Assembly: GCF_023953935.1 (NCBI RefSeq)
Contig: NZ_JAMLIW010000007.1
Span: 82,627 to 146,626 of the forward strand
Length of the DNA: 64,000 nucleotides
Reading direction: 5' to 3'
DNA from: Thermomonas sp.
GTDB taxonomy: Bacteria > Pseudomonadota > Gammaproteobacteria > Xanthomonadales > Xanthomonadaceae
Shown one piece after another: positions 11,559 through 62,653 of this stretch (positions are counted from its first letter, which is position 1; every line of letters begins with the position of its first letter). The translations under genes and the position numbers were made by a program. The notes below the pieces were generated by a model. The model was not told the DNA's origin and made no database searches. It saw nothing but the letters and a program-made list of their open reading frames with translations.

Positions 11559-11914
11559 TCCCCGAAACTCCCGCGCTCGATTTCCACGCCCACCGCTGTC
11601 GCGTTCGGCAGCGCTTCGGGCTTGCTCACTTTCAGGTGCACACCGTGGGCGCCGAATTCGTTGAGGATCAGCTCGGCGCAGGCCTCGGCCAGCGTCTCCA
11701 CCAGCACGTATTCGGTCTGGGTGACGAAATCGGCCAGCCGCTGCGCCACCGCTTCGTAATCCAGGGCGTCGATCAGGGAATCACTGAGCGCGGCGACGCG
11801 GGTCTCGAAGCGGATCCGCACGTCCAGCACCAGCGTTTGCGGGGCGAGACGCTCACGCGCGTGCACCCCGATCAGGGCGGGGATGCGCAGGCCTTCGATG
11901 AAGAGGGTGTCCAC
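11555..11914 (-). CDS. folB: Dihydroneopterin aldolase
   Basis: Folate pathway enzyme converting 7,8-dihydroneopterin to 6-hydroxymethyl-dihydropterin and glycolaldehyde. The N-terminus aligns with E. coli FolB (MDxxFIExLxxxxxIGVxxxE), the catalytic region is seen in IGVHARER, and LDYEAVAQ and VETLAEACAELIL match the family core; 119 residues is normal. Homology fixes the start at GTG 11914-11912. That codon is immediately preceded, on the minus strand, by a heptamer repeat array instead of a recognisable ribosome-binding site. The gene's stop overlaps the SDR start as ATGA. Confidence 0.93.
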   Translation of the reverse strand: MDTLFIEGLRIPALIGVHARERLAPQTLVLDVRIRFETRVAALSDSLIDALDYEAVAQRLADFVTQTEYVLVETLAEACAELILNEFGAHGVHLKVSKPEALPNATAVGVEIERGSFGE

Positions 11915-12007
11915 GTGATTCGTGATTCGTGATTCGTGATTCGTGAAGGCTACCTGCTCTTGAAGCTTTTACCAATCACCAATCACCAATCACGAATCAC
12001 GAATCCC
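11915..12007. repeat. Heptamer repeat array between tsaD and folB
   Basis: Plus strand: four units GTGATTC at 11915-11942, a 26-base spacer, then units CAATCAC/GAATCAC from 11973 to 12000 decaying to GAATCCC and CAATCCC. The two halves are inverted with respect to each other and can pair imperfectly. The array touches the folB GTG on one side and supplies the last codons and stop of tsaD on the other. The same 7-bp unit recurs upstream of gmk. Confidence 0.93.
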
Positions 12008-60991: not shown

Positions 60992-61852
60992 ATGTCGATT
61001 CGCAGCATGACCGCCAGTGCCACCGCCGAGCGCGCAACCGCGTGGGGCGCGCTCGGCTGCGAGCTGCGCGCGGTCAACCATCGATTTCTGGAACTGGGCG
61101 TGCGCCTGCCGGAAGAATTGCGCGGCTGCGAGGCGGCGCTGCGCGAGCGGGTGGCCGCGCGGGTGTCGCGCGGCAAGCTCGACCTCGTCCTGCGCCTGCG
61201 CGCGCCGGCCGGCACCGGCCTGGGGCTGGATGAGGCGGTGGTGGCGCGGCTGGGCGAACTGGCGCGCACGCTGGATGCGCATTTCCCGCAGCTGCACGTC
61301 GAGTTCACCGAGCTGTTGCAGTATCCGGGGGTCTTGCAGGTGGCCGGCGTCGATGTCGAGGCGCTGCAGGCCGAGGCGCTGGCAGTGCTGGAGGCGACCT
61401 TGGCCGCCTTCGTCGCGGCCCGAGAACGTGAGGGTGAAGCGCTGGCGGCGGCGATCCGCGAACGCGCCCGGCGCATCGCGACGATCGTGACCGATGTGCG
61501 CGGCCTGATCCCGGCGATCCGCGCCGGCCAGCGGCAGAAGCTGGAGGCCCGCCTGGCCGAACTGGGAACGGCGGTCGATCCCGGGCGGCTGGAGCAGGAA
61601 CTGGTGCTGTGGCTGCAAAAACTCGACGTCGATGAAGAACTCGACCGTCTGACCAGCCATCTGGACGAACTCCAGCGCGTGCTCACGCAGCCCGGCCCGG
61701 TCGGCCGCCGGCTGGATTTCCTGCTGCAGGAATTCAACCGCGAGGCCAACACCCTGGGCAGCAAGTCGGTTGACGCCCGCACCAGCACTGCCGCAGTGGA
61801 GTTGAAAGTGCTGATCGATCAGATCCGCGAGCAGATACAGAACATCGAGTGA
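60992..61852 (+). CDS. yicC: YicC-family endoribonuclease
   Basis: 286-residue protein beginning [13 protein letters not shown] with the conserved [11 protein letters not shown] and C-terminal [18 protein letters not shown] and [15 protein letters not shown], all near-invariant in the YicC/YloC family, described as an endoribonuclease. ATG 60992 is the family start. Divergent from rph with a 65-bp gap, and followed by gmk as in many proteobacteria, but here with a 183-bp gap taken up by repeats. Confidence 0.94.
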
Positions 61853-61864
61853 TTGGAAAGAACC

Positions 61865-62035
61865 GTGATTGGTGATTCGTGATTCGTGATTGGATAGAGC
61901 AACAGCCCCGCAATGGCAGGTTTACGGCAGATAGAGTTCCCCGCCTTTGCCAATCACGAATCACCAATCACGAATCACCAATCACGAATCACGAATCACC
62001 AATCACCAATCACCAATCACCAATCACCAATCACC
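61865..62035. repeat. Heptamer repeat array ending at the gmk start codon
   Basis: Left arm: four units (GTGATTG, GTGATTC, GTGATTC, GTGATTG) at 61865-61892. Right arm: twelve units of CAATCAC or GAATCAC at 61951-62034, followed by one C and the gmk ATG. Units at 61979-62006 are the exact reverse complement of the left arm, giving a perfect 28-bp stem. Spacer 61893-61950 is non-repetitive. Because the unit is 7 bp it reads open in several frames and gives a false N-terminal extension (NHQSPIT repeats) to gmk. Confidence 0.95.
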
Positions 62036-62653
62036 ATGCAAGGCACCCTCTACATCATCGCGGCGCCCTCCGGTGCAGGAAAATCCAGCATCGTGCGGGC
62101 GCTGCTGGCTCGGGATGCCGGGCTTTCCCTGTCGGTGTCGTACACCTCGCGGGCGGCGCGGCCGGGCGAGGTGGATGGGCGGGATTACCACTTCATCAGC
62201 GCGGACGAATTCGAGGCGATGGTGGCGGCCGGGGATTTCTTCGAATACGCCCGCGTCCACGGCGACTGGAAGGGCACCGGCCGGCAGGCGGTCGAGCCGC
62301 TGCTGGCGGCCGGGCGCGACGTGCTGCTGGAGATCGACTGGCAGGGCGCGCGGCTGGTGCGGCAGAAAGTGCCGGAGGCGGTGGGCATCTTCATCCTGCC
62401 GCCGACCCGTGCCGCGCTGGAAGAGCGCATGCGCAAACGCGCCCAAGATTCCGAGGACGTCATCCGGCGCCGACTGGCCGGTGCGCGTGAAGAGATGCGC
62501 CATTACGACGAGTTCGACTACGTCGTCATCAATGACGTGTTCGAAACCGCGGTCAGCGAGATCTGCTGCATCCTCACCGCCAGCCGCCTGCGCCGGGCGG
62601 TCCAGGCCGCGCATCATGCCGCGCTGGTGGCGGCGCTGCTGGGCGAAGGCTGA
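62036..62653 (+). CDS. gmk: Guanylate kinase
   Basis: Phosphorylates GMP to GDP; essential for GTP, dGTP and (p)ppGpp supply. 205 residues with the P-loop APSGAGKSSIV at 10-20, SYTSRAARPGEVDGRDY (GMP binding) and the C-terminal EEMRHYDEFDYVVIND. ATG 62036 (MQGTLYIIAAPSG) is the family start; an in-frame Met at 61913 would translate the repeat array. No Shine-Dalgarno sequence is visible: the bases preceding the ATG are heptamer repeats. rpoZ and spoT, frequent downstream partners, are absent here. Confidence 0.97.
   Translation: MQGTLYIIAAPSGAGKSSIVRALLARDAGLSLSVSYTSRAARPGEVDGRDYHFISADEFEAMVAAGDFFEYARVHGDWKGTGRQAVEPLLAAGRDVLLEIDWQGARLVRQKVPEAVGIFILPPTRAALEERMRKRAQDSEDVIRRRLAGAREEMRHYDEFDYVVINDVFETAVSEICCILTASRLRRAVQAAHHAALVAALLGEG

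Follow-up and report, generated by a model that had tools for sequence, protein, structure and literature searches.

The window that we analyzed, a stretch of 64,000 nt of Thermomonas DNA, carries yicC and gmk on the same strand, and the 183 bp that now separate the two genes hold a pair of heptamer arrays around a loop (Table 1). As the preliminary description of this DNA had reported, twelve units run up to one base, a C, before the gmk ATG, and no Shine-Dalgarno site is visible ahead of the gene: we found no Shine-Dalgarno match of at least 3 nt from 20 to 5 nt upstream of the start codon. The description had further placed an exact 28-bp reverse complement of the array upstream; such a stretch exists and is slightly longer, positions 61865-61893 and 61978-62006 being 100% complementary over 29 nt. 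Unit-like sequence starts already within the 3' end of yicC, where GTGATTGG spans the stop codon. All units of this element are of the GTGATTS type, with no GGGAATC. An Rfam search gave a single match, of positions 61848-62021 on the minus strand to a plant microRNA model; its E value was 1.1e-5, but its score of 34.9 bits is far below the cut-off of 180, and any long hairpin would probably match in this way.

Table 1. Features of the yicC-gmk junction and of a second element in the window, in window positions.
Feature	Position	Strand	Evidence or remark
yicC, endoribonuclease YicC-like	60992..61852	+	Pfam; stop codon TGA 61850-61852 inside unit-like GTGATTGG
Lone outer unit-like GTGATTGG	61849..61856	+	Includes the yicC stop codon
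Left arm, GTGATTS x4	61865..61892	+	Sequence and repeat searches
Left inner box GATAGAGC, consensus GNAARAGC	61893..61900	+	
Variable loop, 42 nt	61901..61942	none	
Longer frame, 246 aa, from ATG 61913 through the array in phase with gmk	61913..62653	+	
Right inner box GCCTTTGC, inverted	61943..61950	-	
Right arm, SAATCAC x12 (usual number four)	61951..62034	-	
gmk, guanylate kinase	62036..62653	+	Pfam; ATG 62036-62038
Second element, left arm, GTGATTC x4	11915..11942	+	Abuts folB GTG start 11912-11914 (minus strand)
Second element, boxes and short loop	11943..11972	none	
Second element, right arm, SAATCAC x4 pattern (S = C/G)	11973..12000	-	Holds tsaD stop codon 11990-11992 (minus strand)

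These arrays are not confined to gmk. A two-unit pattern with at most one mismatch gave 21 hits in the window where 0.14 were expected, and a second element sits between tsaD and folB (identified by Pfam matches to TsaD and FolB). Across the genome (2.59 Mb in 16 contigs) we counted 227 overlapping three-unit matches (116 + 111), and the reversed-pattern control gave none. We took 55 stretches around arrays, two of which are redundant copies (L077 and L079), and count about 50 element sites in the genome; sites were picked by patterns with two or three exact units, a selection that misses decayed copies. L077 repeats the gmk locus with many errors and indels, at 95% identity over 4.2 kb. Its array, judged by eye and allowing for errors, also has twelve units, and a gene search reports L077 as broken additional gmk pieces; L079 duplicates L075. 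Contigs C2 and C7 have regions in common with other contigs of the assembly. Housekeeping genes lie beside some copies, among them folB, tsaD, prs and rplY. Two elements on contig C16 (L117 and L118) flank prs, next to rplY; their right arms have 13 and 4 units, and they have an identical 23-nt loop within unlike outer flanks, a combination that fits copying.

Compared with one another, the copies show one layout: (GTGATTS)x4, a box GNAARAGC, a variable loop, the inverted box and (SAATCAC)x4. When neighboring arms no more than 250 nt apart were paired in 54 stretches (L077 excluded, L079 included), 45 of 55 pairs pointed inward, 1 outward and 9 in the same direction. Arm lengths, counted with one mismatch allowed per unit and both duplicates (L077 and L079) excluded, peaked at four: 55 of 110 arms had four units, 24 had three, 14 had two and 17 had more than four. 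The box follows the arms; its first base is G in 97%, its third to eighth bases agree in 71-91%, and 77 of the 110 arms match it at seven or more of its eight positions, compared with a background rate of 0.0022. Its two copies in an element can pair, AARAGC with GCTYTT. The commonest unit in the arms other than GTGATTS is GGGATTC, and 96 of the 110 arms are without any GGG. The loops differ in both length and sequence. When 45 loops were compared without their boxes, three pairs outscored the best result from 20 shuffled sets: two that include L075, whose loop itself consists of repeats, and one that joins L064 and L069. For the loop at gmk, we found no related loop among the other copies examined except in the redundant L077.

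We then searched relatives. Of 60 genomes, 2 have exact matches to the three-unit pattern, the Thermomonas genome itself and one congener. A looser period-seven pattern, four times GATTSNN, matched in 12 of the 60, in some only once. Four-unit GGGANNN patterns matched in 16 of the 60, a result that we give little weight, as the reversed control also matched in several. One genome of another family in the same order (G047) has 1190 overlapping four-unit GGGANNN matches, in which the NNN triplet takes many different forms, with 247 for its reversed control. The most specific signature was GKGATTSGNAARAGC, where the unit meets the box; this junction is present in 61 of 149 genomes of the family and in 30 of 54 genera, whereas the reversed pattern was found in none of the 149. 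Copy numbers of this junction reach 78 per genome and are as low as one or two in several; none was found in the four further members of the window's genus within this sample.

In stretches taken from another three genera by means of the GKGATTSGNAARAGC pattern, the same anatomy is seen to a varying degree, and replication was uneven. In G088, which has many GTGATT units, every one of the 12 sites is an inward pair, and 15 of the 26 arms are four units long. In G143, inward pairs no more than 150 nt apart occur at 6 of 13 sites; of the others, four have a single arm, one has none, one has a wider inward pair and one (L196) has the outward order. In G070, such close inward pairs occur at 6 of 20 sites, and at ten further sites a plus arm is followed by a minus arm at a greater distance. 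The anatomy, the position and the recurrence of the element, both genome-wide and family-wide, are direct observations. This is a real, ordered, family-wide element, of which the preliminary description had seen one copy. We propose, with a probability of about 0.7, that the gmk array is one copy of a dispersed family of intergenic palindromes of Xanthomonadaceae and is no control device specific to gmk.

The position of the copies was examined using a simple codon-score gene caller, with which gene starts are approximate. Among 46 sites that could be classed, 35 lie between tandem, 7 between convergent and 4 between divergent genes. A stricter first set of 43 of 54 sites (35 tandem, 6 convergent, 2 divergent; P 0.04 and 0.003) had left out six sites overlapping an open reading frame by more than 60 nt, two without a neighbor and three more than 200 bp away from one; restoring these last three, two of which are divergent, gave the 46. 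In the larger set, the divergent sites have P values of 0.18 against gene pairs and 0.02 against the intergenic bases of the window, so that any avoidance of divergent junctions is weak. Arms often touch the genes themselves. Of 39 starts, 22 fall inside an arm or no more than 15 nt from one, two of these by an overlap of about 50 nt, and the corresponding figure for stop codons is 38 of 47, with 18 inside. As tandem gene gaps in the window are short (median 34.5 bp), arms may lie near stops and starts because insertion is tolerated only there.

Under the dispersed-palindrome reading, each copy has two inward arms, basically of four heptamers and an 8-nt box each, around a loop free to vary. 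Single arms would grow by local gain of units, and the right arm at gmk would have reached twelve in this way. Copies sit in short gaps between genes, probably because insertions at other places are not tolerated, and this would bring their arms into contact with stop and start codons. When transcribed, the gmk copy would fold into a stable hairpin that separates the yicC and gmk coding sequences and would leave an A/C-rich leader partly unpaired, from which gmk could start without a Shine-Dalgarno site. Both the spread as an element and this Shine-Dalgarno-independent start are inferred.

The positions at gene ends would also suit a two-way transcription terminator or an mRNA-protecting hairpin, whose boxes would resemble the A-tract and T-tract of terminators. 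The proximity of stop codons to the arms, the long stem predicted for gmk (see below) and the pairing of the boxes all agree with this possibility. However, the loop cores fold no better than simple shuffles of themselves: with boxes removed, which left six of 43 loops too short, the mean z was 0.08 for the remaining 37, and that of flanking segments was -0.15. The T-tracts, judged by eye, are short and interrupted. Furthermore, most copies lie between tandem genes such as yicC and gmk, where termination would harm an essential gene, and the weak avoidance of divergent junctions (significant by one of the two nulls above) also speaks against such a function. We therefore regard a terminator or protective hairpin as a tentative alternative to the dispersed palindrome.

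The preliminary description had called for a comparison of the array among strains and sister genera. In 25 genomes of the genus, the Thermomonas genome of the window included, heptamer arrays are present at the gmk junction in 3, with different units in each (GTGATTS; GGGACCG with GGGACAG; GGGAGAY), but the remaining 22 do without. Their yicC-gmk gaps measure 2 to 92 bp, and a period-seven scan of these 22 gaps found no array; the gap is only 9 bp in G011, whose gmk is the most similar (89% identical). In G006, the junction has a short left arm of the GGGAGA type, and CTCCCRT units make up its long right arm. In G019, two contigs stop within an array. If these are joined, four units of GGGACC/GGGACT type just past the end of yicC would form a left arm, and the right arm would consist of CTGTCCC and then CCGACCC units reaching the gmk ATG. 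The layout thus appears similar at one junction in three species that have unlike heptamers, the G019 part depending on the join. These arrays may represent separate gains, or one old element with unit turnover that was lost in most species. Both G006 and G019 have more multi-unit arrays elsewhere, often with four units per arm, and in some of them the two arms have unlike units. At L156 of G006, the left arm is mostly GGGATTC and the right arm GGGACCG, so arm complementarity is not always kept. Contigs of G019 also end within heptamer arrays at L159, L160, L162, L164 and L167, and assembly gaps may therefore hide more arrays.

To what extent the array could act on gmk was examined by predicted folding. 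The preliminary description had proposed that an mRNA running from yicC forms a long stem close to the start codon. A long stem is indeed predicted for the yicC-gmk RNA (minimum free energy -82.8 kcal/mol, z -8), but its exact part stops 29 nt upstream of the ATG, which is predicted to be mostly unpaired (per base 0.99, 0.97 and 0.67). A shorter outer helix is predicted to pair the yicC stop region with later units, up to about 62020. For a transcript beginning in the loop, the leader is predicted to be open (0.84) and the ATG unpaired at 0.11.

From such folding one can construct a control locus in which slippage changes the unit number, the unit number changes the exposure of the leader, and exposure sets the level of guanylate kinase. 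For the counts tried from two to eleven units, the 20 nt preceding the ATG have a predicted exposure of 0.06-0.33; it rises to 0.55 with twelve units, 0.80 with thirteen and 0.83-0.84 with more, and as it varies with unit number in this way, an effect of unit number on gmk is conceivable. There is also a precedent, in that passages on the Haemophilus influenzae hmw1A and hmw2A promoters (PMC2424069) report generally less mRNA with more 7-bp repeats. However, the ATG itself is predicted to be unpaired at 0.60-0.89 for every unit number tried. The absence of the array from 22 of the 25 gmk genes of the genus also argues against a switch, and these array-free leaders are themselves poor in Shine-Dalgarno sites (a match of at most 4 nt in 21 of the 22, and of 5 nt in one). 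Arms adjacent to starts are no longer than those adjacent to stops (medians 4 and 4, P = 0.90, 38 and 45 arms), and, in the passages available from their paper, Rehm et al. thought phase variation unlikely for related repeats (PMC4692102). The idea of a device specific to gmk was not borne out, as the element is present at about 50 sites in the genome, some of them next to other housekeeping genes. We consider a slippage-driven gmk switch unlikely, and the net effect of the element on gmk is probably small, mild or none.

Two further readings fare less well. Heptamers might be plain satellites, born and extended by polymerase slippage alone and belonging to no element; relatives do have heptamer arrays with many different units (GGGANNN), and an explanation of 7-mers by slippage is quoted in Rehm et al. 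(PMC4692102, as excerpted), but slippage alone gives neither inward pairing nor a common inner box nor a four-unit peak, and we judge this origin improbable. The idea that a longer guanylate kinase, with 41 extra residues, is translated from ATG 61913 through the array in a frame set by unit number is scarcely credible: the frame is open and in phase thanks to the twelve units, yet aligned gmk genes of 24 other genomes begin with MRGTL at a conserved position and by eye no Shine-Dalgarno motif lies upstream of 61913, so that ATG 61913 is probably not the main gmk start.

Several observations count against the dispersed palindrome that we prefer. The loops are mostly unrelated between copies, unlike those of a simply copied element, replication in other genera is uneven, and in the folding predictions the exposure of the leader depends on unit number. 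Target-site duplication is not above chance (1 of 23 elements, 0.66 expected), and Y1 transposases do not separate array-rich from array-poor genomes. Set beside miniature inverted-repeat transposable elements (MITEs), the copies have terminal inverted repeats (arms and box) and lack both the target-site duplication and, with few related loops among the 45, an interior common to copies. REP/BIME palindromes are short, imperfect palindromes with GTAG or CGTC tags that are associated with RAYT transposases. The elements described here are similarly dispersed, intergenic and often paired in opposite orientation, but their arms are tandem heptamers and a Y1 transposase is not linked to them. We rejected a Y1/RAYT transposase as the driver: it is present in all 10 of 10 array-rich genomes (at least 20 GGGANNN matches; ten of the 60 genomes, the window's own included), yet also in 31 of the 50 others. 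The window's genome has one Y1 transposase match (C9:70728-71054), about 10 kb from the nearest array among those listed, which lie near C9:56030 and C9:81248.

Among the matches listed from the open-licence literature, the only direct relatives are those of Rehm et al. 2015 (PMC4692102). The passages of that paper available to us describe GGGAATC heptamers in two Xanthomonas genomes, mostly intergenic and with a four-unit peak, forming 70 and 75 convergent pairs near the ends of open reading frames and rare between divergent genes; they tie the four units to G-quadruplex formation and leave function open. The Thermomonas arrays agree with these passages (PMC4692102) in being tandem heptamers of at least two units, mostly intergenic and from the same family, and in having the four-unit peak, the convergent pairs and the location near the ends of open reading frames. 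Divergent junctions are rare there; any avoidance of them here is weak (4 of 46). The two sets differ in the unit, which at gmk is GTGATTS and not the GGGAATC by which the Xanthomonas repeats are defined in those passages (PMC4692102). As judged against the same text, they also differ in that most Thermomonas arms have no G-tract and cannot form a quadruplex, and in that units here differ between congeneric species at one junction. The inner box GNAARAGC is not mentioned in the portions of Rehm et al. 2015 (PMC4692102) that we could compare, and within the open-licence text searched we found no description of this box, of four units without G-tracts or of a per-species change of unit at one junction.

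MacGregor 2015 (PMC4679880) provides an analogue. As excerpted, it reports TAACTGA repeats in Beggiatoaceae that, in the main genome, run directly for two to six units and are inverted in a single case. These too are heptamers that lie just before starts, over the ribosome-binding region of genes with few Shine-Dalgarno sites, but going by those excerpts (PMC4679880) they are direct and have another unit in distant bacteria, whereas the arrays here are paired. The hmw1A and hmw2A repeats resemble the gmk array in the presence of a variable number of heptamers upstream of a gene; they lie in the promoters of adhesin genes and come with expression data, and the passages concerned (PMC2424069) do not describe them as paired or dispersed.

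The published link between the four-unit preference and quadruplexes stands against the same preference, pairing and gene-end position in Thermomonas with a unit that forms none. As 48 of the 96 arms without GGG still have exactly four units, quadruplexes cannot maintain the number four here. Either another constraint sets this number or it is an ancestral inheritance, in which case it may come from a G-rich ancestor. We also considered, as an unlikely variant, a distinct family that keeps four units per arm, a period of seven and inward-facing arms, but whose heptamer itself is rewritten between species. If true, this would point to a dedicated, possibly templated, enzyme that adds or copies heptamers, rather than to slippage or quadruplex selection; such an activity would be a bacterial counterpart, at joined ends, of the addition of telomere repeats. 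Within the dispersed family of palindromes that we propose for Xanthomonadaceae, the shared inner box provides a sequence handle for finding further copies and the factor that makes or binds them.
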